Shown: positions 10,364-49,862 of the stretch, in pieces
Numbering within the stretch: the stretch's first letter is position 1
Layout of the letters: the number at the start of each line of letters is the position of its first letter
DNA from: Notolepis coatsorum
Taxonomy: Eukaryota > Chordata > Actinopteri > Aulopiformes > Paralepididae
DNA: 64,000 nt
NCBI GenBank assembly: GCA_963971535.1
Contig: OZ020585.1
Span: 161,528,226-161,592,225, forward strand
Direction: 5' to 3'
Made by a program: the position numbers and the translations under genes
The notes under the pieces: model-generated
Database searches by the model: none
Told to the model about the DNA's origin: nothing
What the model saw: the letters and a program-made list of their open reading frames with translations, nothing else

Positions 10364-10401
10364 GGTAATTAGCGTAATATTAATATAATATTAATATTGA
10401 C

Positions 10402-11850
10402 ATGGCCAACGATGAACACTCCACAAACGGTTCTCCTAAGCTAGATCGCCCGCAGCGCAGACGGCAGCCACCTTCTTACCTAGAGGACTACGCTGCCAGT
10501 CTACTACCTAGCTTTATACAGACATTAAACGCGGGAAAAGCGGATAGTAAAAGTATGTCAAACCCTACCGACCAGGCGACCCTGCCAGTAGAGACCCTAG
10601 TGGGTTCTAACGTAACTGACCAAGCTCACGGGGGGGACCAGGAGGGACATGACATGACTTTACCCCCCGCCAACGTCAACGAGATAGTCCCCGGAGAGCT
10701 CCAGGATAAAGAAAGCCCTCCAGGGACGGAACCCGACCCACCAACAGAAGAGACGCGCACCCAGGAGATGGACCTCCTCGGAGCGCGACCGGAGAACGGA
10801 TCTCCAACGAGCACTGCCAGAAGCCGATCACCTCCATCAGTGTCTTCCCCCAGCGAGGCGGAGAAGATGCTGGCGCAGGCATTTATCGCCACCCTGGCAG
10901 CCTCCACTGAACGCGATCGACTCCAAGCACAGACGCTTAGCGAGCGCGAACATTCTTCCATGGAACAAGAGCGCCTCCGCGCGCAACACCAAAGTGAGCG
11001 CGAACACTCTACCATGGAAAGAGACCGCCTGCAGGCTCAACAACTAAGTGAGCGCGAACAATCTGCAGACCAAAGAGAACGCTTCCACGCGCAACTCCAA
11101 GCGCAAGCCCTTAGTGAACGCGAACACTCTGCAATCGAGCGAGAGCGCTTCCAGGCGCAGCAAAGGAGTGACGACGACCGCATACGCCTGGAGACTAGAC
11201 GCCTCCAGACGGAAGAGAATATGGAAAGAGACCGCGCCGAAGCCCAGCGCGCCGCCGCCGATGCACAGCGCGGAGCCGCCAATGCACAGCGCGACGCAGC
11301 CCAAGCCCAGCGCGAAGCAGAGCGTGACCTCGCTCACATCAAGCGCGAAGCCGAGCGCGACCGATTACAAGCGCAGATAATGGAGCAACTGATTGCCAGG
11401 GCGACTCCCCCTCCCTCCGCACGGAGCTCCAGGGCCTCGTCAAGACAAGGGTCTAGGGCACCCTCCCCTACCCGATCAAGCGACCCGGAGCCCGGCCAAC
11501 AGAAAGAGCCTATACACGTCTCCGAACCCCCTCCCCGACCGGTCCATGCGAGACCCAGCAACAGGGAAGAACCGGCCTACGCCGCTGAGAGACTAAATAG
11601 ACGATTACAGGATCTAGAAGACCTGGCAGAGGAAGAAGAAGAGGGAGATGAGGAAAGTCAAGCCCAACAGCAGCATCGTACTCCACAGGACCAGGAGGTC
11701 CAGTACAGCCCAGACTTTACCCCCGAGGCCCTGCGTTACAGACCCCCGACTCAACTCACGGGTGAGCTTGACGCACGACCAGCCCGAGGAACAGCACCTG
11801 GGTACACGGGCCTTGGTACCCACCAGGTACCAGCCCACCACGACACGTAA
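10402..11850 (+). CDS. BEL ORF1: charged coiled-coil N-terminal (Gag-side) protein
   Basis: 482 aa from the first ATG after the LTR. Residues 1-150 are polar and low-complexity. About 152-330 are a long predicted coiled coil made of degenerate ~20-aa repeats rich in SEREHS and ERxRLQAQ, then AEAQRAAADAQR-type heptads. A P/S-rich part and an acidic run (EEEEEGDEE, about 410-420) follow. No enzyme motif is present. It lies upstream of the DUF1759-like Gag in a different frame, so it is probably the N-terminal part of Gag or an assembly protein. The downstream frame is -1 relative to it, and the two frames overlap for about 78 nt (11772-11850). It could be a separate protein or the start of one polyprotein made by frameshifting. 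Confidence 0.8.
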   Translation: MANDEHSTNGSPKLDRPQRRRQPPSYLEDYAASLLPSFIQTLNAGKADSKSMSNPTDQATLPVETLVGSNVTDQAHGGDQEGHDMTLPPANVNEIVPGELQDKESPPGTEPDPPTEETRTQEMDLLGARPENGSPTSTARSRSPPSVSSPSEAEKMLAQAFIATLAASTERDRLQAQTLSEREHSSMEQERLRAQHQSEREHSTMERDRLQAQQLSEREQSADQRERFHAQLQAQALSEREHSAIERERFQAQQRSDDDRIRLETRRLQTEENMERDRAEAQRAAADAQRGAANAQRDAAQAQREAERDLAHIKREAERDRLQAQIMEQLIARATPPPSARSSRASSRQGSRAPSPTRSSDPEPGQQKEPIHVSEPPPRPVHARPSNREEPAYAAERLNRRLQDLEDLAEEEEEGDEESQAQQQHRTPQDQEVQYSPDFTPEALRYRPPTQLTGELDARPARGTAPGYTGLGTHQVPAHHDT

Positions 11851-11891
11851 GAGGAGACTCGCCTAGGAGGCCTCTCCCCCAACGCTCACCG

Positions 11892-14800
11892 ATGTGCCAG
11901 CCATCCATGGCATCGTACCTTGGCACACCGACGTTCCCGGACTTCACACACGAGAACAGAGCACAGTACACAGAGCTACGAATGTGCTTAGAGACAATGA
12001 TGTCCGATGTCCCCGATGAGACGTACAAGTATGCTATCCTACTCAAGCACCTGAAGGTGCCCAGAGCGCATAATATAGCGCTGGCATATTCCAACTCAAG
12101 TACCCCATACACCGCGGCTCTAGTAGCCCTCGACCAACGTTATGGACGCATATGGGACTACGTAATACAAGAGATAAGGAATATTGACCGTCTACCCCCA
12201 GCCACAGACAATCGCTCATTAGATGACCTCTCAATCAAGGTACAATCCCTGGTAGGGATGCTGGGGGCACAAAAGGAAAAGGGTAGGCACGAACTGTACG
12301 CAAACTCTAATGTTGAGAGAATATTAGAGAAGCTTCCGCCCGCCCGACAAGAGCGCTTCAGGCGGCAAAAGGACCACCGTGATCCCAACGGTCCCGAGCC
12401 ATCCCTCCTAGACCTGGCCGACTTCCTGGCGAGAGAAGTCAGCAGCCTACGACTGGATACGTTCGTGCGGAGCGTACCAAGCTCCAGAGAGGGACCTAGG
12501 AGATCAAACGATAACCGCAGGCTGGTGACCGTCATGCACCAAGCCGAATCAGTACCGCGCAACAAGAACCACAGTACCCCCTCGACGAAAGAGAAGTGGA
12601 AGATTGTATGCCAGTACTGCGAAAAGGAACACTGGCTGTCACACTGTGACACGTTCAAGAAGATGACCGCCGACTCGGTGAGTCAATGGATAAAGTCCAA
12701 CCGCCGCTGTTACCGCTGTGCGCGCAGTCACATGGCAGCCGAGTGCCGCTTAAAGAAGAGGTGTAGTCGGTGTGACGGAGCCCACTTGGACGTTTTACAT
12801 GACAGTAACAGAAGAAAGCCTGCACCCTCAAGCAGCACAAAGGCAAGTGTTATGTACATTGACCCCGCCAGCAGCGGGGGCGCCCGGGTGCTCTTGAAGG
12901 TGGTCCGCGTAACATTGAGCTACGAGGACAAGGTCATGGACACCTACGCCGTCCTTGACGACGGGTCGGAAAAGACCCTTCTCCTCGCGTCCGCTGCGGC
13001 CCAGCTGGGGCTGCGGGGGAGCGAAGAAACGATGACGATTCGGACTATAAGAAGAGACCTGAAGACGATCAAGGGTGAGAACGTCTCCTTCACTATCGCA
13101 GCAAGCGGGCAGCCAGAGAGACGGTATAGGATCACTAACGCTTTCACCAGCCAAGACATAGGCCTGTCGCGGTACACCTACCCCATCGCCAAGCTGATGG
13201 ACAAATACGTGCACCTGCGTCAACTACCTATACCGCTCATAGACGGCACCACCCCGACCCTGCTCATAGGATCCGACCACGCACACCTCATCGTCCCGAT
13301 GGACCGGGTCCACACTGGGCCCAGAGGCTGTCCAGCAGCAGTCGAGACCCGCCTAGGATGGACACTACAAGGCCCCCTCTCCAGGTCTCCCAACCGAACA
13401 GCAGCCACTCGCTGCCTCCACTCCAGAGTGACAGAAGAAGACACCGCCCTCTTACAGCACGTCGAGAGGCTATGGACACTAGAGACAATGCCCTTTAAGA
13501 ACGAAAAGAAACACATTCGTTCCAAGGAAGACATTTATGCCATAGCCCTCCTCGAGCAGGGGACAAGGAGAATCAAAGTCAACGGAGTGATGAGATACGC
13601 AACTCCACTCCTGAGGCGAGAGGGTATGCCTACCTTCCACGCCCCAAAAGAAGCGACGGAGCGGTATCTATCGAACACAGAGCGGCGCCTAGCCAGAGAC
13701 CCCGCTCAAGCTACTGTGTACCGCGCTGAGATTGACAAGCTAATCACAGCGGGACACATAAAGAGAATTGACATTAAAGAGGCCGATCAGACGACCGAAT
13801 CATGGTATGTGCCGCACCACAAAGTCCACCACAACGGCAAGGATCGTATTGTGTTTAACTGCAGCTACCAGATCGGATCACAAAATCTGAATAAAGAGCT
13901 CTTGCCCGGCCCAACACTCGGCCCCTCTCTACTAGGCGTGTTGCTACGTTTCCGCCAGAACAAGGTGGCCATCAGCGGCGACATCAAAGGGATGTTCCTG
14001 CAGGTGCGACTAGTGGAAGAGGACAAGCCCTTGCTGCGGTTCTTATGGAGAGAGAGGATCGGGGATGAGCAACCATCCATCTATCAATGGGAAGTCCTCC
14101 CTTTCGGAACCACATGCAGCCCATGCTGTGCTACGTTCGCACTGCAAAAGCACGTCGCAGAGGACCCAGCAGCTGATGAAGAGGTCCGACAAAGTGTAGG
14201 AAATAGTTTCTACGTGGACAACTGTCTGCAAAGCGTCTCGACGCCAGAAGAAGCCGAGGCCCTCCTACTCAAGCTCCGCGCCTCTCTGATCAAAGGCGGC
14301 TTTGATCTCCGGCAGTGGGCCAGCAGCGACCCTCAAGTATTGCGCAGCCTCTCCCCAGAGGACAAGGCAGCAAGCAGCGAGACCTGGATGGCGACCATCC
14401 CAGGAGAAGCCCAAGAAATTACATTAGGACTAGTCTGGCGCTTCAAAACAGACTCGCTCCATTATAGACACACACCCCTGACCAAGGAGCAGGGAAGGTC
14501 GACTTCACTACCGACCACAAGACGGAGTGTATACAGAACACTCGCCAGACAATATGACCCGTTGGGATGTATTCTACCTTACACCACCAGGGCAAAGATG
14601 ATTGTACGAGCGCTATGGGACAAGGACCAGGGCTGGGACGATCCCATACCCGAACACCTTGCCTCCACATGGAGAGAGTGGGAGACAGAACTCAGCTCGC
14701 TCCCAGGTGTCAACATACGCCGCAGCTACTTCCCACCCACAGTGAGGCCGGAGACGTGTCAGATGGACCTGCATGTCTTCAGCGATGCCTCCGAAGTAGC

Positions 14801-16811
14801 CTACGGTTCGGTGGCCTACTTGCGGGCCCGAGAGGAGGGAGGAGAAATACATACTGCCTTCATCCTGGCTCGCTCAAGAATAGCCCCCCGCAAGCAACAA
14901 TCTATCCCGCGTCTAGAGCTCTGCGCAGCCCTAGTAGGAGCGCAACTCGCCACGTTAATCCAACGTGAACTCACCATCCCGGTGCAAAGAACAATCCTGT
15001 GGTCAGACTCCATGACCGTACTCACATGGATCCAATCCGATTCGTGTAGATACAAGGTCTTCGTGGGAGTCAGAATCACAGAGATCCTAGATTTAACAGA
15101 AGCAGCATGCTGGAGGTATGTGGACACAAAGCAGAACCCAGCCGACGTCATCACACGGGGAATGTCCCTGGATGACCTCACCCGTCACAATCTCTATAGT
15201 GACGGTCCCGAGTTCCTCAAGCTCCCGGAAGAAGAGTGGCCTACACCCACCCCACGGGAGGCGAGTGAAGAGGAGGCAGAGAAGAAGAAATCTATGTTCT
15301 GTGGGTTGACACACACACTAGTCCCCACAGATCCCAACATAGACGACTGCCCCACCTTTGAGAGTGCGCAGTTAAAGACATTCCTGTGGCACCACCCAGA
15401 GGTTCCGTCCACTACTGACATTAATGCAGCTAACTACGAAGAAGCAGAACTCCTTCTGCTACAGCGAGCCCAAAGAGACTCGTTCCCCGCCGAGCTAGAC
15501 TGTCTGCAGGGATCAAAGCCAGTCCCGTCAGACAGCAGACTGCTCCACTTGGCCCCTGAGAGCGACGCCCATAATCTCATCAGAGTGGGTGGTCGTCTGA
15601 GGAGAGCCCCAGACTTAACAGATGACGTCAAGTTCCCGATAGTCTTAAACAGCCGACACAAGGTCACAGAGCTCATCATAAAGAAATACGACGAGGACGT
15701 GCACCACGCCGGGGCAGAGAGATTCTTCGCGGAGATCAGACGTCGCTATTGGATACTGCAAGGAAGAGAAGCAGTACGACGCTTCCAGCGGACCTGTCTA
15801 GACTGTCGCAAGTGGCGAGCACAGCCCAGTATACCCCGGATGGCTGACCTACCCCCCTGTCGCCTCCGACTCGGCGACAAGCCCTTTCACTCCACCGGTA
15901 TGGACTGTTTCGGCCCGCTGTATGTAAAGAAAGGAAGAGGGACGGAGAAGCGGTGGGGTATTGTATTCAAATGCATGACCACCCGAGCGATACACATAGA
16001 ACTCCTTCCAACCATGAGTACGGACTCATTCCTTATGGCCTTCTGGAGATTCACATCGCGGAAAGGAAAACCGTCTATATTATTGTCTGATCACGGGACA
16101 AACTTCAAAGGCGGAGAAAGAGAGCTGAGAGAGAGCTTCCAAGCTATGGGCCCAGAACTTAAGACCCACCTCGCTCCCTCTCAGATTGATTTCCAGTTTA
16201 ACCCCCCGAATGCACCTCACTTCGGTGGAACTTGGGAACGAGAAGTACGTTCAATAAAGACAGCCCTGTACGCCGTGCTTGGGACCCAGACCGTGGCGGA
16301 AGAAGTCCTCACGACAGTCCTCACGGAGATCGAGGGAGTATTGAACTCAAAGCCCCTCGGTTACGTCTCAAGTGATGTAGCAGATGTCGACCCAGTCACC
16401 CCCAACACTCTCTTGATGGGGCGGCTGGACCCCGCGCTCCCACAGACAGTGTACAGACCTGAAGAAGCGAACGGCCGAAGAATGTGGAGGTACAGTCAAG
16501 TATTGGCTGACAAGTTTTGGAACAGTTTCCTCCTCCACTATCTACCGTCTCTACAGACCCGCCAGAAATGGGTAAAAGAAAGAGACAATTTGACGGAAGG
16601 CACAGTCGTCAGGATTATCGACCAGTCACTACCCCAAGCTATGTGGCCGGCCGGCCGCGTAAGCAAAGTGATCACTGGTGCCGACGGAAAGGTCAGAGCG
16701 GCAGAAGTGCTCGTCCAAGGGCGGACATACACCCGACCCGTGGCGAGGCTGATAGAGTTGCCAAGGCTCCCCGACTCTCTTGATGACGACCATGACCCCC
16801 TGACTTTGTGA
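11892..16811 (+). CDS. BEL/Pao Gag-Pol polyprotein
   Basis: 1639 aa, uninterrupted. Residues ~15-190 are a DUF1759-like Gag region. Zinc knuckles follow at ~240-252 (CQYCEKEHWLSHC) and ~271-305 (CYRCARSHMAAEC, CSRCDGAH). An aspartic protease has its active site at ~351 (LDDGSEKTLL). The RT spans ~635-800, with FYVDN at the catalytic turn (~773), where the usual second Asp is Asn. RNase H lies at ~960-1095 (FSDAS, RLELCAA, WSDS). The integrase H2C2 finger is at ~1270-1310, and the DDE core has Asp in MDCFGPL (~1337), Asp in SDHGTNF (~1400) and Glu in GGTWEREV (~1447). A DUF5641-like tail ends the protein. The first ATG is used here, but the frame is open from 11772, so the real product may start by -1 frameshift from ORF1. 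Confidence 0.92.
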   Translation: MCQPSMASYLGTPTFPDFTHENRAQYTELRMCLETMMSDVPDETYKYAILLKHLKVPRAHNIALAYSNSSTPYTAALVALDQRYGRIWDYVIQEIRNIDRLPPATDNRSLDDLSIKVQSLVGMLGAQKEKGRHELYANSNVERILEKLPPARQERFRRQKDHRDPNGPEPSLLDLADFLAREVSSLRLDTFVRSVPSSREGPRRSNDNRRLVTVMHQAESVPRNKNHSTPSTKEKWKIVCQYCEKEHWLSHCDTFKKMTADSVSQWIKSNRRCYRCARSHMAAECRLKKRCSRCDGAHLDVLHDSNRRKPAPSSSTKASVMYIDPASSGGARVLLKVVRVTLSYEDKVMDTYAVLDDGSEKTLLLASAAAQLGLRGSEETMTIRTIRRDLKTIKGENVSFTIAASGQPERRYRITNAFTSQDIGLSRYTYPIAKLMDKYVHLRQLPIPLIDGTTPTLLIGSDHAHLIVPMDRVHTGPRGCPAAVETRLGWTLQGPLSRSPNRTAATRCLHSRVTEEDTALLQHVERLWTLETMPFKNEKKHIRSKEDIYAIALLEQGTRRIKVNGVMRYATPLLRREGMPTFHAPKEATERYLSNTERRLARDPAQATVYRAEIDKLITAGHIKRIDIKEADQTTESWYVPHHKVHHNGKDRIVFNCSYQIGSQNLNKELLPGPTLGPSLLGVLLRFRQNKVAISGDIKGMFLQVRLVEEDKPLLRFLWRERIGDEQPSIYQWEVLPFGTTCSPCCATFALQKHVAEDPAADEEVRQSVGNSFYVDNCLQSVSTPEEAEALLLKLRASLIKGGFDLRQWASSDPQVLRSLSPEDKAASSETWMATIPGEAQEITLGLVWRFKTDSLHYRHTPLTKEQGRSTSLPTTRRSVYRTLARQYDPLGCILPYTTRAKMIVRALWDKDQGWDDPIPEHLASTWREWETELSSLPGVNIRRSYFPPTVRPETCQMDLHVFSDASEVAYGSVAYLRAREEGGEIHTAFILARSRIAPRKQQSIPRLELCAALVGAQLATLIQRELTIPVQRTILWSDSMTVLTWIQSDSCRYKVFVGVRITEILDLTEAACWRYVDTKQNPADVITRGMSLDDLTRHNLYSDGPEFLKLPEEEWPTPTPREASEEEAEKKKSMFCGLTHTLVPTDPNIDDCPTFESAQLKTFLWHHPEVPSTTDINAANYEEAELLLLQRAQRDSFPAELDCLQGSKPVPSDSRLLHLAPESDAHNLIRVGGRLRRAPDLTDDVKFPIVLNSRHKVTELIIKKYDEDVHHAGAERFFAEIRRRYWILQGREAVRRFQRTCLDCRKWRAQPSIPRMADLPPCRLRLGDKPFHSTGMDCFGPLYVKKGRGTEKRWGIVFKCMTTRAIHIELLPTMSTDSFLMAFWRFTSRKGKPSILLSDHGTNFKGGERELRESFQAMGPELKTHLAPSQIDFQFNPPNAPHFGGTWEREVRSIKTALYAVLGTQTVAEEVLTTVLTEIEGVLNSKPLGYVSSDVADVDPVTPNTLLMGRLDPALPQTVYRPEEANGRRMWRYSQVLADKFWNSFLLHYLPSLQTRQKWVKERDNLTEGTVVRIIDQSLPQAMWPAGRVSKVITGADGKVRAAEVLVQGRTYTRPVARLIELPRLPDSLDDDHDPLTL

Positions 16812-18284: not shown

Positions 18285-19002
18285 ATAACTATTTTATTGC
18301 AATGCACTATTGCATTATTTTATTCTATTTTACTAACTATTTTATTGCACTGCACTATTTTACTTTGTATCAGTGATAATCAAACCGTAAACAAAGACGC
18401 CTATTAACACTTTCAGCGCCAGATGGCGCTGTTTACTGTTACTGTTGAAAGGCCGGCGCCTTTTAACATGGGGATACGTGGCTGTGTTTGCAGGCCTAAA
18501 GCTATATTATATATTATAGCTATGGATCTAATAATATAGTCGATTGTCATTGAGTTTCTTCCGGTCAAGATGCAAAAAACAGATCATTTTCCCATCCATA
18601 CATTTCCGTTTTATACCGTCGTGAATATGAGTGTAGTTTCAGGGTGGTCTGGTGTCATTTCCAAAATGCTTCGTAATGGCCGTGTATTCTAGTAAACGCG
18701 TTATCGTTTCTTCCCTGGACTAGCTACTGTTCTCAAATCAAATTTAGATTATCGGTATTATGTTTAATCATGGATGCATGAAGGGGGGGGGGGGCGCCCC
18801 TCCGTGCTTTGATCGCAACCAACGGAACACGTCACACACACACACACCCCGATCAGCATGAAGGAATTTTTGGATCAATTGATTGAATTTAATTGAAAAC
18901 CTTTATTTATCCCCGAGGGGAGATTCAGATGTCCTTTACAGCATAAACAGCATAACAGCAATTAAAAAACAGCAATTAAAAAACAGTTTATACATAACAT
19001 AC

Positions 19003-19466
19003 TGTAAGGGGCTGAGGGGAATGGTGATCAATGGATGCTATGTTCCTGCCTGTTGGCTCCCCCCAATGGAGAGAAGAAAACTGACAGCTGCACACAGGCA
19101 GACCCACACACAGCTGTCTTTCAATTAGCAATCAGCATGCCTCTCAAAGAGGACAGACCAAGAACATCAGAGTGTGTCTTGGAATGGAGAATGGGAGAGC
19201 TGTTGGGAGACAACCAAACTGTGAGTTAACAGCCGGTAAGCCGGACAGCGGCCCGGCTTAGTTAAAGACTGGACTATAGCCAAGACAGTTAGGTGCTTCA
19301 CTGGGAGCCAGTATGATTTTTGTTTGTTTCTTAATTTTCTGTTTTGTTTAAATAAATGCCCCTGGCCATTGTCCAGCGGGGAGCTAAAGCTGTTTGACTG
19401 TGTGTTTGATTATTTGTACAACCATATTGCACCTTCCACCTACCCCTGTCTGCTACCTTTGTTACA
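19003..19466 (+). repeat. Gmr1-like 5' LTR
   Basis: 464 bp from TGTAAGGGGCTGAGG to CTTTGTTACA. It contains AAATAAATG as a possible polyadenylation signal near 19350. A TGG that may start the primer-binding site lies at 19470. Confidence 0.9.
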
Positions 19467-19528
19467 TTGATGGAGAATGCGGGCACTGTAATTTGTTTGT
19501 ACAATAGTCAAACACTGTTAAAAGCAGC

Positions 19529-21160
19529 ATGGAGAACCTGGTGATACAGCTGTTAAAGGCCAATGAGGAGCAGAAGGCTATGCACCAGGAGCTCCTGGCA
19601 GAACAAAGGCAGCAGAATACTCTCATATATGCAGAGATGAAGAAAGGTACGGCGCCAGGCCCTACCCATCACAGTGGAGCTGGGGGTCAAACCAACCCGA
19701 GCAGATTTATCCCCAAGATGACTGAAAATTATGATGTGGAAGCCTATTTTCTGGCATTTGAACGAACAGCCACCAGGGAGGGGTGGGCTGAGGACACCTG
19801 GGCAGATCTCATTGGACCTTTTCTCACCGGGCCTGCGCAGCATGCCTATCTTGACCTCTCCCCTGAACAAGCTAAGGTATATACCCATCTAAAAAAAGAG
19901 ACTTTGGCTAGGTATGGTTACAGCCTGCATGCTCGAGCTCAAAGATTTCATGAGTGGAAATACACTCGAGAGATGTCTGCCAGAGCCCAGCTGTATGACC
20001 TAGCTCGTTTGGGCAAATCCTGGCTGACTAATGACCCAGAGGGGGTGAGTGTGTTGGAGAGAGTGGTTATGGACACATTTATCCGTACATTACCCTATGA
20101 TGCCAAGAAAATGGTGAGCCATGGTAACCCAACCGGGATTGATGATCTGGTCAATCTTGTTGAAAGCCACCAGGTCACAATTGAACTGCTAAAGTCAGGA
20201 AGGACTGAGCGACCAGAGGCTGGGAAAAACAGGAAAGTCCCAGAGAAGGCCCGAGTGTGGGAAAAAGAACCAGAGCGAGAAGACCAGGTGCTGAGACGCA
20301 GACGGTTCCCAGTACTTGGGGATAGGAGGAGGTGCTTTGAGTGTGGAGAGGTGGGACACCTCGCCTGGGACTGCCCCACAAGGGATGAATCCATGCCTAC
20401 TGCAGCCTCGGCTGGTGGAGGCTCAGGGAGGCCTTGCCACCTACTGGACTCCTGTTGGGCCACCGAATGCTCCCCTCCCCACATGGTGCCGGTAAAGATA
20501 AATGGAAAGGATGCAGGAGCACTGGTGGATTCAGGTAGTTCAGTCTCACTGGTCCAACCCCATCTCCTTGACCAGCTGGAACCTGGTGAGTCGATACCTG
20601 TGTCCTGTGTTCATGGGGATACCAGGGAATATCCTGTGGGTAAGGTTCAGCTCACCACACCTCAGGGTACCTGTGAACTGAAGGTGGGAGTGGTTCCCCG
20701 TCTACCCGTCCCGGTGCTGGTTGGCCGAGACTGCCCCCTCTATGAGAAACTATACCAGATGAAAAAGGTGAGCGAGAGAACTCAATATACTCGATGTAAT
20801 GTAACCTCAAAAGGACGCAAACGTGTACTAACTTCCCCAAAGGTGTATTCCCCAGGAGGAGAGACCTCCAAGCTGGTGTGTGTTGCTCCGGAGAACGATG
20901 ACCAGAGCTCCACAGGGCCCAGCTCAGAAGAGGAGTTGGAGAACCTATTTGCTTCCTTTCCAGATGAAGTGAGCTTGGGGGAAGCCGAGCAGGGAGCCCA
21001 GCCCTTACCCCGGTTGAGAGGACAGTTTGGTACGGCCCAGTTGGGGGATCCCAATCTGCTGCATGCTCGGAGCAATGTGCAAGAGATAGAATGGAAACTG
21101 GCTCCCGGGGTGAGTAAACTCTCATATCCCCATTTTCTGATAAAAAATCAACTTCTCTAG
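19529..21160 (+). CDS. Gmr1-like Gag-protease with SCAN-like capsid region
   Basis: 543 aa from an ATG 63 nt after the LTR. A short N-terminal helical part is followed at ~60-200 by a capsid region resembling SCAN domains (FERTATREGW, LIGPFLTGPAQHAY, then RFHEWKY). A single CCHC knuckle lies at ~269-282 (CFECGEVGHLAWDC). A retropepsin-like protease has ALVDSGSS at ~332. Known from the literature: the SCAN domain of vertebrate zinc-finger proteins is thought to descend from the Gag of Gmr1-like elements, which fits. The frame ends at a TAG at 21158-21160. Integrase continues in the same frame after another stop at 21191-21193, so the Gag-Pol reading is broken here. Confidence 0.85.
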   Translation: MENLVIQLLKANEEQKAMHQELLAEQRQQNTLIYAEMKKGTAPGPTHHSGAGGQTNPSRFIPKMTENYDVEAYFLAFERTATREGWAEDTWADLIGPFLTGPAQHAYLDLSPEQAKVYTHLKKETLARYGYSLHARAQRFHEWKYTREMSARAQLYDLARLGKSWLTNDPEGVSVLERVVMDTFIRTLPYDAKKMVSHGNPTGIDDLVNLVESHQVTIELLKSGRTERPEAGKNRKVPEKARVWEKEPEREDQVLRRRRFPVLGDRRRCFECGEVGHLAWDCPTRDESMPTAASAGGGSGRPCHLLDSCWATECSPPHMVPVKINGKDAGALVDSGSSVSLVQPHLLDQLEPGESIPVSCVHGDTREYPVGKVQLTTPQGTCELKVGVVPRLPVPVLVGRDCPLYEKLYQMKKVSERTQYTRCNVTSKGRKRVLTSPKVYSPGGETSKLVCVAPENDDQSSTGPSSEEELENLFASFPDEVSLGEAEQGAQPLPRLRGQFGTAQLGDPNLLHARSNVQEIEWKLAPGVSKLSYPHFLIKNQLL

Positions 21161-21193
21161 TATGCTCAGATGGTGGACAGTCAAAAAAGATGA

Positions 21194-22333
21194 TTGCTAG
21201 TGGTGCCCAAACAGTATGTGTCCACAGTTTTACACCTGGCCCACAGCCATGTCCTCGGTGCCCATCTGGGGGTCGAGAAAACCAGAGACCGTATCAGGGG
21301 ACGGTTCTATTGGCCAGGAGTGGTAAGAGCGGTCACAGACTACTGTTGCACATGCCCAGAATGTCAAAAGATGGCACCAAAACCCCACTTCAAAAATCCA
21401 CTGATACCATTGCCGATTATTGAGGTGCCCTTTGATAGGATTGCCATGGACCTAGTGGGACCGCTAGTGAAATCTGGAAGGGGACACCAATATATCCTTG
21501 TTGTCCTTGACTATGCCACCAGGTATCCTGAGGCCATTCCCCTCCGGAACATGACAACGAAGGGCATTGCACGGGAGCTGCTCCAGATGTTCAGCAGAGT
21601 TGGGATACCCGGAGAGATACTTACGGACCAAGGGACCCCCTTTATGTCTAGGATCATGAAGGACATGTGTCGGCTCCTCAAGGTAAAATAAATTAGAACT
21701 TCAGTATACCACCCACAAACGGATGGTTTGGTCAAAAGATTTAACAAGACCCTGAAGTCCATGCTCCGGAAAGTGGTTGATAAGGATGGCAGGGACTGGG
21801 ATCAGTTGCTGCCTTACCTCATGTTTTCCATTAGAGAAGTACCACAGGCATCTACAGGATTCTCACCATTTGAACTCCTGTATGGAAGGCAACCAAGGGG
21901 CCTGCTTGATGTGGCTAGAGAGGCCTGGGAGGAGCAGCCCAGCCCACATCGCAGCCTGGTGGAACATGTGGAGGTGATGCGGGACCGCATGAAGGTACTG
22001 TGGCCAATGGTAAGGGAACATATGTCACAAGCCCAGGAAGCCCAAAGACGAGTCTATAATAGGGGTGCACAGCCACGTGAGTTCCAACCTGGGGACAAAG
22101 TGTTGGTACTGGTACCCACCACTGACCACAAGTTTCTGGCCTCCTGGCACGGACCATATGAGGTGGCCGAAAGGGTAGGCCCAGTTAACTACAAAGTGCG
22201 CCAGCCAGGACGCCTATTCAAATCTATCATGTCAACCTGCTTAAGATGTGGTATGCCAGAGATGTGCTGGTGTCTTGTGTTTCTCCTTGTGTCTTCCCTT
22301 ACTCCTCACCAAGGGATGAAGGTGTCGAGGTGA
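21194..22333 (+). pseudogene. Gmr1-like integrase (broken)
   Basis: It starts with an H2C2 zinc-binding region (HSHVLGAHLG, CTCPECQK). The core follows, with Asp in MDLVGPL and Asp in LTDQGTPF. A TAA at 21689-21691 interrupts the frame just before YHPQTDGLVKRF; the expected catalytic Glu of that motif is Lys here. The downstream part reads through FELLYGRQPRG into a chromodomain-free C-terminal region. A frameshift near 22218-22245 then moves the frame to that of RT. Lying before RT is the defining Gmr1 feature. Confidence 0.85.
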
Positions 22334-23765
22334 CGTATGGGCCAGGGCTCTCAAAAATGCAGCTGCAGCAGATGAAGGAATTGGTGCAGAGAGCCTCAGG
22401 TGTGTTCTCCAGTGTACCAGGCCAGACCACCCTGGTGGAACACCACATCCAGACAGAGCCGGGTCGGAAGGTGAAAATGCGGCCTTACAGAACCCCAGAA
22501 GCCACGAGGGTCATCATTGAAGAAGAGGTCAAGAAGATGCTGACACTGGGCGTCATAGAGGAGTCCTATAGTGAATGGGCTAGCCCGATCGTCCTGGTCC
22601 CTAAGCCAGACAACACAAAAAGGTTCTGTAATGATTTTCGGAAGCTTAATGAAATATCTAAATTTGATGCCTATCCCATGCCTAGGGTTGACGAGCTGAT
22701 TGACCGGCTGGGGGAGGCCCGGTACATCAGCACCCTGGATCTAACCAAGGGGTATTAGCAGGTGCCTCTAGCAGCTGACTCCAAGGAGAAGACTGCGTTT
22801 GCTACCCCCACAGGGCTGTACCAATACACAGTGTTGCCCTTTGGCCTGCATGGAGCCCCAGCCACCTTCCAAAGGCTAATGGACAAAGTGTTGAGACCTC
22901 ACGTGAGTATGCAGCTGCATATCTGGATGATGTGGTAATCCACAGTGAGGACTGGGAGAGCCACTTGGACAGGCTTGCTGCGGTATTAGAGGCTCTCCGC
23001 AAAGCAGGTTTAACAGCCAATCCAAAGAAGTGCAAGCTTGGTTTGGAGGAGGCTGAATACCTGGGTTTCACCATCGGACGAGGAAATGTGAAACCACAGG
23101 AGAGTAAGGTTCAGTCTATTGAGGAGTGGCCCCGACCAGCAACTAGGAGACAGGTAAAGACCTTCCTGGGACTTACCTCCTATTACTCTCGTTTCATCCC
23201 TAACTACTCCTCTATAGCTGCTCCCCTCACAGACCTAACCAAAGCCACCAAGCCCCTCATGGTGGAATGGACGGAAGAGGCAGAGAAGGCGTTCCAGGGT
23301 CTCAGAGAGGCACTTTGTGCACGGCCCGTGCTGGTCACCCCGGATTTCACGCAGGAGATGATCGTGCAAACAGATGCGTCAGAGGTGGGAGTAGGAGCCG
23401 TACTCTCTCAAGAGATACGAGGTGAGGAACATCCAGTACTCTACATCAGTAGGAAGCTGAACCAAAGGGAGCAAGGATATGCCACGGTAGAGAAGGAAGG
23501 ACTGGCTATCAAGTGGGCACTGGAGCATCTCAGATATTATCTGGTGGGCCGACATTTCTCTCTCGTAACTGACCATGCACCCCTAGTCTGGATGTCCAAA
23601 AAGAAGGAGACTAATGCTCGAGTCGGTAGATGGTTTCTTTCCTTACAAGAGTTTGATTTCTCTGTGATCCACAGGTCGGGAGCCAAACACGGGAACGCAG
23701 ACGCCCTGTCCCGGAGAGATGCCCTCTGGACCTTATTTGCCTCTCCTAAGCAGGGACTGAAGGGG
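22246..23765 (+). pseudogene. Gmr1-like reverse transcriptase and RNase H (broken)
   Basis: RT motifs appear in order: ASPIVLVPKPD, then DFRKLNEI, then TLDLTKGY. A TAG at 22756-22758 follows, where a Trp codon would be expected. Next come [17 protein letters not shown], a frameshift at about 22903, and YLDD at ~22917-22928 leading into the thumb. RNase H follows (QTDASEVGVGAVLSQ, YATVEKEGLAIKWAL, TDHAPLVW, GNADALSR). The last long frame (22932-23897) runs into the 3' LTR. No integrase follows RNase H, so the usual Gypsy order is excluded. Confidence 0.88.
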
Positions 23766-23771
23766 GGGGTA

Positions 23772-24234
23772 TGTAAGGGGCTGAGGGGAATGGTGATCAA
23801 TGGATGCTATGTTCCTGCCTGTTGGCTCCCCCCAATGGAGAGAAGAAGACTGACAGCTGCACACAGGCAGACCCACACACAGCTGTCTTTCAATTAGCAA
23901 TCAGCATGCCTCTCAAAGAGGACAAACCAAGAACATCAGAGTGTGTCTTAGAATGGAGAGTGGGAGAGCTGTTGGGAGACAACCAAACTGTGAGTTAACA
24001 GCCGGTAAGCCGGACAGCGGCCCGGCTTAGTTAAAGACTGGACTATAGCCAAGACAGTTAGGTGCTTCACTGGGAGCCAGTATGATTTTTGTTTGTTTCT
24101 TAATATTCTGTTTTGTTTAAATAAATGCCCCTGGCCATTGTCCAGCGAGGAGCTAAAGCTGTTTGACTGTGTGTTTGATTATTGTACAACCATATTGCAC
24201 CTTCCACCTACCCCTGTCTGCTACCTTTGTTACA
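23772..24234 (+). repeat. Gmr1-like 3' LTR
   Basis: 463 bp, same termini as the 5' LTR. It differs by a few transitions and one T in the TTATTTGTAC/TTATTGTAC run. Confidence 0.9.
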
Positions 24235-24944
24235 ATACATAACATACACTTATTAGTATGTGTTAAAAACAAGATGAACAAGTACACAGGGATAAAAAAC
24301 AAAGAAAAAAACAAGTCCAATCATGAATGTGTTGTTAAATAATTAAATTAATTTGTTACAGTCCACAACCCAGCTCCTCCAGTCCACGGCAGTTGGCCCG
24401 TCCTGGCCCTGCTTGGTTGTGGAGCCAAAGGACTGCCCAAAGCGCTTTGTGGTATGTCGGGGGGGGATGAGTCTGTGGCTAAACGTGGACCGCATTGCGG
24501 TCAGCTCATCATAGAGGGGGTGGCAACGCAATATTGATACCATATAGTCCTTACTTTGACCAGGATCTGTCCCGAAAAGAATATTCCAATGATCTGATCG
24601 CCATTCCAAGTACTGATGTCGATCAAGGTGCCAACGTAATCCAGCATTGAACATGAACCCGACCCTCGTCGATGCATGCGTTATAAGCGTTTGGCTTGAC
24701 CGAGTAGTTAGACCCCGCCCACAGGCCGCAGCTCGGCCCAGACACCAAGCCACATCGTTTCAAATGGAGTGCAATAGGCGGCTTTTGAGATCTCAGACCC
24801 ATCCCCAGTGATAACACAGGCTGCCGGCATGTCTTTATGAATGGAAATATCGAATAAAAGAAACAACGATGAAAACCCGACTATACTCTGGTTTTCGGGG
24901 GTCCTGGCGCTCAACGTTCGGCGAGTTAACCCTAGATCTTAGAT

Positions 24945-25850: not shown

Positions 25851-26101
25851 CTGCAGGTGTCACTCATCAGTAATTAGTGATAGTGATTTAAAGACTTGCT
25901 GGCATAGCGTCAGCGAAGCGTCGAGAAACGAAGAGGGACAAAGAGGAGGAGTTTTCCTGGAGTTTACCGCAGAGGGATCCACCGATCCACCCAGTGCTAA
26001 GTACACCATAATCCCATATTCCCGTCCCACTCTGCTATTTCCCTACTATCTCGCTTCCTCCCTAGCCCCTTCAACCTCCTCCTACCACTCTTGACACCAC
26101 A

Positions 26102-29025
26102 ATGTGCCTCATACCTATATCCACAATCTGCTCCTCAAGAACAGAATCAACCCATCCACGCCAGTTTGCTAGCAACCCGGCTAATCTCTCCTACCCTCCT
26201 ACAGCCACTAATACACCTGTCACAGTACAGGGAGGCTTATGGAATTGTCAATCAGCAGTCAAGAAAGCTGACTTCATTACTGCCTACGCCCATAGTCTAA
26301 ATCTGCAGCTCCTGGCTCTAACTGAGACCTGGATAACCCCCAATAACTCGTCAACACCTGCAGCATTATCTACAAACTATAACTTCACTCACACACCTCG
26401 ACCCTCCAGACGGGGTGGAGGCACTGGCCTCATGACATCTCCTTCATGGGCTACAAACCTAACGCAACTCCCAGAACTGTCACTCTCCTCCCTCGAATAT
26501 CATGCAGTATCTGTCTCTAATCCTTTCAATCTCACCATTGTTACACTCTATCGCCCTCCAGGTCCCCTCGATCACTTCACAGATGAGCTGGACATGCTTC
26601 TAAGCTCCTTACCGGAAGATGGTACCCCGCTCCTTCTATTGGGCGACTTCAACCTGCCTGACTCATCTCAGTCGGTCCCAGTGGTCTCCCTCCTACAACA
26701 ATTTGACCTGACTCCCACTGCCATGCCTCCCACCCACAAAGCAGGCAACTCCTTGGATCTCATATTTTCCCGTAACTCCAGCATCATTAACACCACGGTA
26801 ACTCCCCTACATGTATCTGACCATTCCTTCATATCCTTCTCACTAACTCTCATGCTTAACCGAAAAGTCTTCACCCCAACTCAAACCGTCTCACTCAGAC
26901 GCAACCTGCCCTCCCTATCCCCCTCCACCCTCTCCTCTGACATAATATCCGCTCTACCTTTGAGTGACACCTTCTCTGCTCTCCCCACAGAGATGGCAAC
27001 CTCCACCCTCCTCTCAGCCCTTGCAACCTCCTTCGACAAGCTCTGTCCCCTCGTTGAGAAACCTGCCCGCCGTTCCCCACCCAGTCCATGGCTGACGGAT
27101 GCAGTGAGAGAACAAAGACAGGTCCTGAGAGCGGCTGAGAGGAAGTATAGAAAGTCACGCCTCACTGCTGACATCGACACATATCACAACCTCTTGTTAA
27201 CATTCTCCAAAACCATTACTAATGCCAAAGCTTCTTTCTTTCACCATAGGATCGAGGCCTCTGCCAAGAATCTTCGCAAACTGCATGCTACCATGTCCTC
27301 CCTCCTCACTCCCCCCCCACCTCCTCCTCCCTCATCTTTTTCTGCCGAAGACTTTGCGATCTTCTTTGAGGAAAAAGTGGAGAACATCCGCAGCTCCTTC
27401 TCCCAACCCCCACCCATTCCAAACGCTGAATCGAGAACCTCATCCTTCACTCTGTCATCTTTCTCTCCCATTACAGAAGCCGAGACCCTGACACTGGTAA
27501 CGTCGAACCGTCCGACTACATGCCAGCTGGACCAGCTACCCTCCCCACTCCTCCAGACCATAGCACCGGACATCCTCCCATTCCTAACTGCAACCATCAA
27601 CTCCTCACTCAACTCGGGGGTGGTCCCCACCTCCCTAAAACAAGCCAGAGTCACGCCCCTCATAAAAAAACCAACCCTGAACCCCACCGTCATAGCCAAC
27701 TATCGCCCTGTCTCTCTTCTCTCCTTCCTTTCTAAAACACTTGAACGTGCTGTATCCAACCAACTTACTGCTTATCTCTTACAGAATGACCTCCTAGACC
27801 CCAATCAGTCTGGCTTCCGGACTGGCCACTCCACAGAAACGGCCCTCATTGCGGTCACAGAGGCACTTCACTTAGCAAAAGCGAAAGGCCTCTCCTCTGT
27901 CCTGATTCTCCTAGATCTATCTGCAGCCTTCGACACAGTCAACCATCAGATCCTCCTCGCGGCCCTCGCAGGAATGGGAGTGGCTGGATCTGCGCTGACA
28001 TGGCTGACATCATACCTCAATGACCGCTCCTACCAAGTGTCATGGAGAGGGACTCTGTCGGCCACCCGCCCCCTCCGGACGGGTGTCCCCCAGGGCTCGG
28101 TCCTAGGACCCCTTCTCTTCTCCCTCTACACTAAATCACTGGGTAACATTATCACATCTCATGGCTTCTCATATCATTGTTATGCCGATGATACTCAACT
28201 CTTCCTCTCCTTCCCTCCCTCAGATATCCACGTCTCTGAGCGGATCTCGGCCTGTCTGTCCGACATCTCCGCCTGGATGACGACCAACCACCTCAAACTG
28301 AACCTAAGCAAAACAGAATTGCTCCACCTGCCGGCCAAATCCTCCCCCCTGACCGACCTCTCCATCACAGTCGAGAATGCAGCTGTGACCGCGTCGCCGA
28401 CCGCCAAGAACCTTGGTGTTGTCCTCGACGACCAGTTGAACTTCTCTGCTCACATCGCAGCGACAACCAGAACCTGCAGATTCCTCCTGAGCAACGTCAG
28501 AAGGATACGCCCCTTCCTGACAAAAGAAGCCACCCAACTCCTCGTCCAATCAACAGTCATCTCCCGCCTCGACTACTGCAACGCACTGCTAGCTGGCCTC
28601 CCGGCCACTGCCACCAAGCCTCTTCAACTCATTCAAAATGCAGCGGCCCGCCTGATCTCAAACCTACCGAAGTCAGCCCATGTCACCCCACTTCTTAGGG
28701 ACCTGCACTGGCTCCCCATTGCTGCACGTATCCGCTTCAAGGCCCTCGACCTAGCATACCGTGCGGCAAAGGGAACCGCTCCCGCCTACCTCCGGTCAAT
28801 GGTCTCTAACTACACACCCTCAAGACCCCTACGCTCTGCGTCTTCTGGCCGCCTCAGATCTACTCCTATCCAAGCTCCCGGAGGGTCATCAAAGAGAAGC
28901 CGCCTATTCTCAGTCCTTGCCCCACAATGGTGGAATGAACTACCCATCCCAGTTAGGACAGCCGAATCCCGTCCAATCTTTCGCCGTCGACTAAAGACTC
29001 ACTTCTTCAACCATTATCTGAAATG

Positions 29026-29026
<1 letters not shown>
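26102..29026 (+). CDS. L2 ORF2: AP endonuclease plus reverse transcriptase
   Basis: 974 aa, no interruptions. The APE-type endonuclease spans ~45-250: WNCQSA, LTETWI, LLGDFN (~180), then SDHSFISF (~240). A linker carries a poly-Pro run at ~400. The RT spans ~515-800: YRPVSLLS, SGFRTGHSTETAL, LDLSAAFDTVNH, GVPQGSVLGPLLFSLY, and YADD at 694-697. The C-terminal region ends with WWNELPIPVRTAESRPIF and FRRRLKTHFFNHYL, typical of the L2 clade. It nicks target DNA and primes cDNA synthesis from the LINE RNA. No separate ORF1 was seen. Whether translation starts at this ATG or at a nearby codon is uncertain. Confidence 0.92.
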
Positions 29027-34736: not shown

Positions 34737-37660
<2,924 letters not shown>

Positions 37661-39428: not shown

Positions 39429-40506
39429 TTATTGTTCGTTGAGCAGCCTGATGGCCTGGGGATAGAAGCTTCTTCTGAGTCTTTCTGTGCTCGCCTTAAG
39501 ACTCCGGTATCGCTTGCCTGACCGCAGCAGTTCAAAGAGGCAGTTGTTCGGGTGGCTGGAGTCCTTGATGATTCTCTTAGCCTTACCCCTGCACCACTTG
39601 TTGTAAATGTTCTGGAGGGTGGGAAGCCCCCCTCCAATTGTGCGTTCGGCTGAACGTGTCACTCTTTGTAGTCTGCTACGGTCTTGTGCAGTGCTATTCC
39701 CAAACCAGGAGATGATGTTGCCAGTCAGGATGCTCTCTATTGTACATGAGTAGAAGTTCTTAAGGATCTTCTGACTGACTTGGAACTTCCTTAGGCGCCT
39801 GAGGAAGTAGAGGCGTTGTCGTGCCTTCTTCACAACACTGTCAATGTGTGTGGTCCATGTCAAGTCCTCGGATATGTGGGCTCCGAGGTACTTGAAACTG
39901 TTTACTCTCTCAACCGGTGCCCTGTCGATGCTGAGGGGGCTGTAGTCCTTGACCCCCGACCTCCTGAAGTCCACAATCATCTCTTTTGTTTTGCTGACGT
40001 TCAGGAAGAGGCAGTTCTCCTGACACCACTGTGACAGATTCTCTACCTCTTCCAGGTAGGCCCTCTCGTCGTTGGCAGAGATCAGGCCCACCACTACTGT
40101 GTCATCAGCAAATTTGATGATTGTGTTGTTGTTCCGCTGTGCCACGCAGTCATGTGTGTACAGGGAGTAGAGGAGGGGGCTCAGAACACAGCCCTGGGGG
40201 GCCCCTATGTTGAGCATGATGGATGAGGAGGTGCAGTTGCCTGCTCTTACCACCTGGGGTCTGCCCGTCAGGAAGTCCAAGACCCACTGGCAGAGGTCAT
40301 AGTTCAAGCCCAGGTCCCTGAGCTTGGCTATGAGTTTGGAGGGGACTATGGTATTGAATGCTGAGCTGTAGTCGATGAACAGCATTCTCACATAGTTCCC
40401 CTGCCTCTTGTCCAGGTGTGATGCTGCTGTGTGCAGCACCTCCGTGGACCTGTTAGGGCGGTATGAAAATTGCAGGGGGTCCAGGTTGATGGGGAGGGAG
40501 GAACAG
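39429..40506 (-). pseudogene. Rex1-like reverse transcriptase, C-terminal half
   Basis: After the hAT insertion the RT continues: [48 protein letters not shown], then the catalytic [11 protein letters not shown]. The thumb ([19 protein letters not shown]) and the end [16 protein letters not shown] with [11 protein letters not shown] follow. About 355 codons read open to the stop. It lacks its own N-terminus because of the insertion. A copy of its 3' UTR is at 6.6-7.1 kb. Confidence 0.85.
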
Positions 40507-40514
40507 ATGTAGCC

Positions 40515-41703
40515 TAGAGCCATATGAAATCTGTTTTATTATTTTCCAAATTCCATTTGATTTTTTCCCAAATTCCATTTTTTCCGTTTTAATATTTCAG
40601 AATTCTGTATTTTGCCTTTTATGCTCATTTTACCATCAGAAATAGTGTCCAATAAGTGGGAATGAATAAATGTCCACAATTGAATAAGATATAACAGTCC
40701 ATTTAATGTTTTTAAGTGCTGCAACTCAGAAATACAGTTCAATTTTACACAATATTTTTCAATTAATATTGTGACAAAATAAAAATACATATTTCAAGTG
40801 TAAACAATAGATACAGCTAGCTACTACTGACATTATCACAATGACAATGTCAGTAACCTAGCTATATCTATTATATTGTGATGAAATATAGTAATGCATA
40901 ATTTAGGCACCTTTAGTTTAGTTTATTTCGTTTATAAAGGACAGTGTATAATGGCAATCGTTTGGATTAAACAAATGGATGGGTGCACTAGATTTAGCAA
41001 GAAGCTATCATTTCCAACTATAGTCCTATGTACTGTAACGTTTCATAGCTATTTAAGTTTATTTAGATTATAAAGGGCAGTGTATAATGACAATAGTTTG
41101 CATTAAACAAATGGATGGGTGCACCAGATTTAGCTAGAACTTCTAGAAGCTATCATTTCCATAGATAGTCCTATAACGTTACATAGCTATTTAAGTGTAT
41201 TTAGTTTATAAAGGGCAGTGTATAATGACAATCGTTTGCATTAAACAAATGGATGGGTGCACTAGATTGAGCTAGAAGCTAAACGTCCTAACGTTATAGC
41301 TATTTAATCACAATAGTGTCGCAAGTGTTTTTGCGGGTCCAGTCCACGGAACGTTGACAGAATTAGCAAAACACCTTATCACCGGAGGCATAAAAGTCAT
41401 TAGGATACTGTTCTGCTCTGAATTTAGGGCTTATTGTGGAATTGTTTAGCTTCTTGACGATGTTAACACTGAAGCAGCCAGACGGCAGACGCTTAAGCAC
41501 CGCGGCTGTGTTGTGTGTAACACGCTGTAGAGTCCCCGCCTCCCCGGTCGCGTGTGCACCAAACGTTCCACCCAAAAACGAAATTTCAGTCCAGATTAGG
41601 CCAAATTCTGCAATATTCCACATTTTGCAGTTGATTCCATTTTTATTGGTTAATTCCGCGATTCCGTCCGCGATTCCGTGAACGCGGATTTCATATGGCT
41701 CTA
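40515..41703. mobile_element. Non-autonomous hAT element in the LINE RT (1189 bp)
   Basis: Termini are TAGAGCCATATGAAATC and its inverted form, flanked by the 8-bp duplication ATGTAGCC (40507-40514, 41704-41711). The interior has three tandem-like copies of a ~110-bp segment (AAACAAATGGATGGGTGCAC at ~40970, 41105 and 41247) and no transposase. Removing the element and one duplication reconnects the LINE reading frame. Confidence 0.9.
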
Positions 41704-41711
41704 ATGTAGCC

Positions 41712-42556
41712 CTTCATTAGCTTCTCAAAGCACTTCATGGCTATGGAGGTGAGAGCTACAGGGCGGTAGTCGTTGAGGCAAGCGGGCGTAGATTTTTTGG
41801 GTACAGGGATGATGGTGGACTTCTTCAGACAGGTGGGGATGACAGCCTGTTCTAAGGACAGGTTAAAGATGTCAGTGAATACCGGGGCCAGTTGGTCGGC
41901 ACAGACTTTTAGGACGCGGCCGGGGATGCCGTCCGGTCCTGCTGCCTTCCTGATATTCACTTTTTTAAAGGTCCGCCTCACCTCATGCTCTGTTACCCTG
42001 AACACTGAGTCTCCATCAACAGACCCCCCCCCCCCCCCATTGCCGTGGCTTGTAGGCTGGTGTTGTTATTCACAGCCTCAAACCTCGCATAGAAGGTATT
42101 GAGATCATTTGCTAAGGAGATGTCACTGTTCAGTTTGAGGGAGGTGCCTTTGTAATCTGTCATTGTTCTGAGGCCCTGCCACATACCTCTAGAGTCAGCC
42201 TGTTCAAACTGAAGTTCAACTTTATCCATGTAACGCCGTTTTGCCTCTATTACTGCTCTCCTGATGTTGTATCTTGCCATCTTGTGTTCATCCATGTTGC
42301 CTGTCACAAGCCCGGTGTTGTAGGCTGAGGTGCGCACTTTCAGAGCCTCACGGACGGATTTATCTACCCAGGGCTTTTGATTTGGGTAGATTCTAATTGT
42401 GGTAGAGGGGATTGTTTCTTCTACCAGAGTACAGACAAAGTCAAGCACCGTTTCAGTGTATTCGTTAATATTGGCTGTGTTATCACGGAATATATTCCAG
42501 TCTGTGCATTCTAGTGCAGCCTGGAGTGTCTCCTCTGACACTCTGTCACAGTCCAA
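41712..42556 (-). pseudogene. Rex1-like RT, N-terminal part
   Basis: Reads YPNQKPWVDKSVREAL, RYNIRRAVIEAKRRYMDKVE, then a frame change at the poly-C run (~42025-42038). [20 protein letters not shown] and [20 protein letters not shown] follow, up to the hAT insertion. Confidence 0.8.
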
Positions 42557-43296
42557 CGCTTAACCTCTCGCGATACTACCGGCGTTCGCTTGAGACTCTG
42601 TTTATACTTTGGCAAAAGAAAGATGGTGGCGTGGTCCGACTTGCCGAAAGGACTAAGAGCCTGTGACTTGTACCCATTCTTAAATTGCGAGTATACATGG
42701 TCTAATATGTTCTCGCCTCTGGTGGGACAGGTCACATGCTGATAGAAATTCGGCAACACCTTTTTAAGACGCGCGCTGTTGAAATCGCCCAGAACCAAAA
42801 TGGCAGCGTCAACATTAGCTATCTGTAGTTTATTTACCTCGTCGTGTAGCTTTGAAAGTGCGGCCCCAGTGTTCGCTTGTGGTGGGATATATACTCCGAT
42901 CATGATGATGGACGTTAACTCCCTCGGGAGAAAGAAGGGTCGGCATTTGATCGTGATAAACTCCAGGTCTGGGGAGCAGTGGTTAGACAATTCCTTTGTG
43001 TTGCCTATATCGCACCACTCCTTGTTTACCATGAAAGCAATGCCGCCTCCTTTCGTCTTTAGTGATTCTTCTGCCGTTCGGTCCTTACGGAGAATGAAGA
43101 AGTGATCTGCCGGTTCTATTGCATGGTTTGGGATGTCTGGAGACAGCCAAGTTTCTGTGAAACAGAGGACGTTGCAGTCCCGAATGTCCCTCTGGAATTG
43201 GATCCGTGCTCTGATGTCGTCCAGTTTGTTTCCTATCGATTGCACATTGGCCAACAATATGCTGGGCAATGTGGTTCTGTGTCGCTTGGACCTCAA
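42511..43296 (-). pseudogene. Rex1-like LINE AP endonuclease
   Basis: About 260 aa: LLANVQSIGNKLDDI, LCFTETWLSPDIPNHAI, GGGIAFMVNKEWC, IIMIGVYIPPQAN, ILVLGDFNSARL, then GKSDHATIFLLP. These are the Asn, Glu, Asp and His motifs of APE-type endonucleases. An upstream open segment (43348-43587) holds the probable N-terminus, starting near 43581 in another frame, so this copy carries a frameshift. Confidence 0.85.
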
Positions 43297-43612
43297 TCTA
43301 TTTCGGACGCCGGCTCTTCTCCCTCGTCGTCGTGCCTTTTCCTTGCCTCATCCACAACAAAGGATCTCCGCTGGCCACTGATGTTGTTCAGCAATCCGAT
43401 CCAGAGAGCAATCTAGTCGGTAAGTTTTCCTTAATCCAATGTCAATGAGTGACTGACGGTCATACACGTATAATGCACCAACAGTTGGTGCAAATAAAAC
43501 TCTTAAAACTATAAAAATTAACAAAAGCAAGCACAGTCTCGACGGAGCGAACAGAAAGGCAGCCGGTCGGAGCAGCGCCATTCTCAATGCGTGTGTGTGT
43601 GTGTGCGATCAG

Positions 43613-49605: not shown

Positions 49606-49831
49606 TGTAATATCCTAGGGATATCTGTGTAGCCCATAGCCTACCACAGCACAGCAATGATGCGTGCGTGATGACGTGTTACGTATTCCGAGTCATCCGA
49701 TATGCAGACGCTGGTTCATTGTGTTGTCATTGCTGCCCGGGACGTGATAATAAACGGTAACCCAAATAAGCAGTCGCCCGATTCCATCATTCCCTATAGA
49801 CACTAAGAGTGACGTTTAGCGGAATATTACA
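49606..49831 (+). repeat. Gypsy 5' LTR
   Basis: TGTAATATCC to AATATTACA, 226 bp, with AATAAA-type signal at ~49748. No difference from the 3' LTR was seen. Confidence 0.92.
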
Positions 49832-49862
49832 TGGTGCCAGAAGCCGGGTCTTTTTCGAACCC

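Follow-up and report, generated by a model that had tools for sequence, protein, structure and literature searches.

The Gmr1 group of Gypsy retrotransposons is described as carrying the integrase upstream of the reverse transcriptase (RT; PMC8220671). SCAN domains are reported in over half of the Gmr elements of frogs (PMC4131045), five zebrafish elements are described with a SCAN protein encoded between the 5′ long terminal repeat (LTR) and pol (PMC8672886), and the Gmr elements reported from pufferfish and relatives (Tetraodontiformes) have a single Gag-Pol frame of 1506–1634 residues (PMC11117352). The SCAN domain itself has been ascribed to a Gmr1-like Gag (PMC3424704; PMC3406341). Here we describe an element at positions 19003–24234 of a 64-kb stretch of the genome of Notolepis coatsorum (contig OZ020585.1; the whole stretch is called the window below). 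An initial annotation of the window, made from its sequence alone, had stated both that the Gmr1 group has the integrase-first order and that SCAN is thought to derive from a Gmr1-like Gag, and both statements are in print (PMC8220671 for the former, PMC3424704 and PMC3406341 for the latter); order and SCAN link are already published for Gmr1 elements. The element is very probably a Ty3/Gypsy LTR retrotransposon of the Gmr1 type, in a decayed copy that is not autonomous, the Gmr1 references being known here by description.

The element is bounded by a 5′ LTR of 464 bp (19003..19466) and a 3′ LTR of 463 bp (23772..24234), both of the form TG...CA, which were delimited by comparison with each other and, for the 5′ LTR, by an LTR search of the host's own genome (3.42 Gb, the window lying in its contig C6); all features of the element are on the plus strand. 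Pfam matches between the LTRs comprise SCAN, zinc knuckle and aspartic protease, in that order, in the open reading frame (ORF) 19508–21160, integrase zinc-binding and core domains in ORF 21194–21691, the integrase C-terminal domain in ORF 21692–22333, and RT and ribonuclease H (RNase H) in ORF 22189–23897. The domain order is Gag, protease, integrase, RT, RNase H, and the order given in the initial annotation is borne out by these matches and the LTR pair. The Gag-protease frame (19529..21160; first ATG at 19529, stop at 21158–21160) is open in this copy; the protease (20483..20734) is matched by PF13650, PF13975 and PF00077, each under its curated cut-off, and is 33–41% identical to the protease of other SCAN-bearing loci of the host. 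The integrase is interrupted by stops: its zinc-binding domain and the first part of its catalytic core (21194..21691; PF17921, 5.4e-20; PF00665, 5.6e-11) end at an in-frame stop, and the remaining core, in which the third catalytic acid is replaced, and the C-terminal domain follow (21692..22243; PF22938, 27.4 bits, cut-off 27). RT is broken by one stop and a frame change, its N-terminal part (22342..22755; PF00078 at an E value of only 0.03; 49–68% identity to related families) ending at the stop and its C-terminal part with the YLDD motif (22869..23270; PF00078, 5e-10) lying in another frame, ahead of RNase H (23343..23654; PF17917, 2.3e-38). The protease and the first RT piece are weak in Pfam, yet both align to related families. 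Neither an Rfam family at its gathering score nor a tRNA gene was found in the 64-kb window.

In a comparison with the SCAN hidden Markov model, a check suggested at the outset, the Gag exceeds the curated cut-off (PF02023, 32.5 bits against 27) over residues 142–222 of the open frame (19931..20173), a region with a predicted capsid C-terminal fold. The motif FERTATREGW..LTGPAQHAY, which the initial annotation had offered as fitting a SCAN-like capsid, was placed by alignment at ORF residues 84–114 (19757..19849); the SCAN-like Gag stands, but the motif belongs to the N-terminal half of the capsid and precedes the SCAN-like region. A CCHC zinc knuckle (20330..20377; PF00098) follows the SCAN-like domain, and no C2H2 zinc-finger family was reported in the Pfam scan of the Gag ORF. 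A model built from 13 aligned rows was usable (one from six rows, with a predicted local distance difference test score of 49, was not), and in it the predicted fold of the Gag is that of a capsid with two domains, the C-terminal one being the SCAN-like part. SCAN forms a domain-swapped dimer, and the capsid model here is a monomer; solved SCAN entries were absent among the 50 structure matches listed, which is uninformative because the list was preselected and those entries are domain-swapped dimers. The SCAN profile scored above its cut-off in all five other Gmr1-type Gags to which it was applied, and the same profile found no SCAN match in the Gag of a classic Gypsy element elsewhere in the window (49800–53560). 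Scores in the family of the window element and in its sisters range from 32.5 to 41.9 bits, and those of the host's top 150 SCAN hits from 85.9 to 94 bits; integrase-first Gypsy elements with a SCAN domain form at least three clearly distinct lineages in the host. Because the Gags of two of these lineages, represented by L013 and L019, reach 90 and 86 bits vs. 32–42 in the window's family and sisters, it is conceivable, if doubtful, that the source of the vertebrate SCAN domain could be traced to one particular Gmr1 sublineage still present in this host, the lineage of the window element being a relative that branched off early; the variation of SCAN scores between families of a single host could help to locate that donor.

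The flanks of the element (18990..19002 on the left and 24235..24247 on the right, neither assigned to a strand) match over 13 bp, ATACATAACATAC, and the last four bases of the left flank and the first four of the right are the likely target-site duplication. A 4-bp ATAC duplication had been annotated; ATAC is repeated, and 4 bp is the likelier reading, but the match actually extends to 13 bp. The full match would fit an element that duplicates 13 bp of target rather than 4, which is improbable: a 9-bp tandem repeat at the target accounts for the 13 bases, and the other copies of the family point elsewhere. Twenty 5′ ends of own-family copies were fetched, and among the 10 with both outer edges readable the duplication is exactly 4 bp in four, all at unambiguous sites, 2 or 4 bp in two, and in two more lies within microsatellites that permit 4 bp and more. 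The remaining two copies (L066 and L075) have no duplication and weigh against a duplication of 4 bp, L066 ending in the next tandem copy. Since the duplication is exactly 4 bp in four copies at unambiguous sites, the 13-bp match more probably reflects a 4-bp duplication within a 9-bp tandem repeat. Duplications of Ty3/Gypsy elements are 4–6 bp long.

Both RT-RNase H and integrase have Ty3 as their best relative among solved structures, RT-RNase H at 1.9e-53 (retroviruses from 1.2e-22) and integrase at 7.8e-14, the latter with a narrow lead over the integrase of PFV (foamy virus; 1.2e-12), and the initial annotation of the proteins as Gypsy-type is sustained. The RT-RNase H of the window element is 48–55% identical to 13 rows of integrase-first SCAN families; for Ty3 the figure is 41%, and for the classic Gypsy of the window 35%. 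Trees were made in three rounds: the first used 13 of the 16 SCAN-hit loci of complete domain order that are described below (L009, L011 and L026, with split RT, were out), its integrase tree containing one joined row; the second used nine of those 13, plus three own-family and two sister rows for RT; and the third used six loci, plus two own-family rows for RT, with L080 out of the RT tree, and its integrase tree omitted L025, which has a stop, and L083, whose integrase lies in a different frame. The integrase-first rows fall on one side of all three RT trees, at 78/74, 57/62 and 51/76 (bootstrap/Shimodaira-Hasegawa-like approximate likelihood ratio test), and of two of the three integrase trees, at 45/73 and 57/80; the second-round integrase tree, which speaks against this grouping, failed to separate classic from integrase-first rows. 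Five of the six trees agree with an integrase-first grouping, at weak support and with few classic rows, and because the classic branches are long the trees are limited; they are weakly consistent with a single integrase-first group, without proving it. The weak branch support, together with SCAN scores in the window's family and sisters that are far below the host's best, would also suit a separate Gypsy lineage that gained the integrase-first order independently of Gmr1. Such a lineage is very unlikely, as the nearest rows by tree path, for RT and integrase alike, are other integrase-first, SCAN-bearing families, and the type of Gag is shared; one origin is the simpler reading. Two scans of public viral contigs matched two stretches and one stretch, respectively, none of which was confirmed as a relative.

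That the integrase-first order, read above as a Gmr1-type trait, extends beyond this copy is seen in the rest of the genome. An own-genome search with the RT-RNase H piece covered 125 of 27,794 candidates, and its 126 matches comprised the window itself, 41 other places at 93–97% identity, one copy in two pieces and a remainder at 64–69%. RT is preceded by integrase in 26 of the 29 other own-family loci fetched, and in all 29 an LTR directly follows RNase H with no integrase match in between. The order recurs in both loci fetched from the sister family (L079 and L080, out of more than 80 sister rows), although L080 has no match to the first RT piece. From 150 scored places among 5,144 candidates for SCAN, 20 loci were chosen by eye for spread of score and contig (two of them, L009 and L010, coincide with L001 and L003); the full order of Gag, protease, integrase, RT and RNase H is found in 16 of the 20, four are incomplete, and RT before integrase was found in none. 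The classic controls are RT-first in four of four cases: the classic Gypsy of the window, L083 and L084, both with RT-RNase H ahead of integrase, and Ty3 (chain 7q5b), with its RT match at 742–1009 and its integrase match at 1089–1244. Several loci count against a uniform order. Three own-family loci (L055, L057 and L058) are without an upstream integrase match, L055 having a 35% match outside its LTR; among the SCAN-hit loci L010, L015 and L022 are incomplete and L027 is without a match; and in L004, a shorter locus, an RT-RNase H directly precedes the SCAN Gag, itself followed by protease and integrase, an arrangement read as two joined copies. A classic RT-first Gypsy rearranged locally, in this copy or in the ancestor of a few copies, might be imagined from L004, since joined copies exist, but it can be dismissed, because the order is common to the own-family, sister and SCAN-hit loci in the numbers given and the RT-RNase H is 48–55% identical to the 13 SCAN-family rows vs. 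35–41% to the window's classic Gypsy and Ty3. The data support an integrase-first order that characterizes both this family and related families of the host. The initial annotation had held that the order is that of the element and had called for a search for other copies; that search found integrase-first copies and, among the 29 loci, none with integrase between RNase H and the 3′ LTR.

At L004 (97–3216) about 180 bases separate the RT-RNase H and SCAN Gag matches, and a second SCAN hit lies 3.9 kb upstream (G000:C27:90903645). Tandem own-family copies with one common LTR occur at L046 and L048 (G000:C7:162568054-162577670), where the LTR closing the first copy precedes the second copy's primer site and Gag.

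Just 3′ of the 5′ LTR, 17 of 19 bases (19468..19486) are complementary to the 3′ end of tRNA-Ala(AGC) with CCA added; the fit is 16 to 19 of 19 in five other copies compared (the site was read in nine), and a fit of 17 was not attained by any of 100,000 random sequences. Two points weigh against this assignment: tRNA-Ala was chosen after the site had been seen, a choice among tRNAs that the random test ignores; and the comparison used the 3′ end of L082, from which L081, the other of the two fetched genes that ARAGORN called tRNA-Ala, differs near its 3′ end. The gene was located from a 36-base 5′ half with 326 exact matches in the genome. On this match, tRNA-Ala is the likely primer. Genes resembling tRNA-Ala(AGC) stand in large arrays, at G000:C9:8945407-9177716 and G000:C4:17410481-17526205 among the places listed, and many of the matches are spaced by about 934 bases or about 2.23 kb. 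A purine tract, GACTGAAGGGGGGGGTA (23755..23771), abuts the 3′ LTR, and an equivalent site with a G-run of varying length is present in other copies. With its TG...CA LTR ends, primer site, polypurine tract and 4-bp duplication, the element has the structural features of Ty3/Gypsy. Unbroken frames of 1,371–1,507 codons surround RT in some own-family copies, as do frames of 1,446–1,502 codons in many sister rows, and therefore the family probably makes Gag and Pol as a single protein.

In intact members of the family a single long reading frame would thus cover all five coding parts, from Gag and protease through integrase and RT to RNase H. The 5′ LTR would drive synthesis of the RNA, which would be packaged by the two-domain capsid with its SCAN-like C-terminal domain; reverse transcription would be primed by tRNA-Ala just 3′ of the 5′ LTR and by the polypurine tract just 5′ of the 3′ LTR; and the product would be inserted with a 4-bp target duplication. 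The layout, the primer-site match, the tract, the duplication size and the domain identities can be read from the DNA itself, and the steps of reverse transcription and integration are assigned by analogy with LTR retrotransposons in general.

Judged by its reading frames, the window copy is non-autonomous and movable only with the help of others, because its integrase and RT are not intact. The third acidic position of its integrase catalytic triad is Lys, and among the 29 other copies this position is Glu in 19 of the 22 that are readable, Lys in two (L031 and L033) and Val in one (seven are unreadable); the Lys shared by L031, L033 and the window element may go back to one ancestor whose integrase was already dead and which was copied in trans, or may have arisen repeatedly. 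The LTR pair differs by six substitutions in 463 aligned bases (five transitions, one transversion) and one indel, a Kimura two-parameter distance of 0.0131 (1.3%). At assumed rates of 1–4e-9 per site per year, the insertion would be 1.6–6.6 million years old. Nine other own-family LTR pairs, including that of L066 from a tandem with a shared LTR, have distances of 0.0021–0.0108, all below that of the window element, and in the LTR search, which covered 40 of 352 candidates and included both LTRs of the window element, identity was 97–100%; the copies so measured are young. In a genome rich in its relatives, the window element is an unremarkable insertion of fairly recent date. The suggestion that this copy could help to date the lineage in its host fails, as LTR divergence dates a single insertion only.

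Mobile elements and tandem repeats make up much of the window. In the classic Gypsy, RT at 51210 is followed by RNase H and then by an integrase core at 52856, the integrase being split across two overlapping frames. A BEL/Pao element (10384–16811) has a 1679-codon open frame with a Pao peptidase, RT and an integrase zinc-binding domain, and pieces of non-LTR retrotransposons with RT or endonuclease domains lie at 26066–29026, 36327–36899, 39429–40535 and 42511–43347, one of them with a 986-codon open frame.

These results confirm the integrase-first Gypsy order and the SCAN link in another genome and add, for one family, a likely primer (tRNA-Ala), the size of the target duplication and LTR divergences. 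Like the Gmr1-like elements (Gadus morhua Gmr1 and relatives), the window element has integrase upstream of RT (as described in PMC8220671) and Gypsy-type RT, RNase H and integrase; it shares a SCAN-type Gag with the Gmr elements reported from frogs (PMC4131045) and Gag and Pol in one frame, at the level of its family, with those reported from Tetraodontiformes (1506–1634 residues there; PMC11117352). Compared by description rather than by sequence, Gmr consensuses of 6.1–6.5 kb (PMC11117352) are longer than the window copy, which is 5.2 kb and broken. Its capsid C-terminal domain resembles the SCAN/ESCAN domain of vertebrate transcription factors, passing the cut-off of the SCAN profile, but it is part of a retroelement capsid and is followed by a zinc knuckle and a protease. 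With Ty3 and the classic Gypsy of the window it shares RT-RNase H and integrase of the Ty3/Gypsy kind; those elements, however, have RT before integrase, and the Gag of the window's classic Gypsy, unlike that of the element described here, is without a SCAN match.

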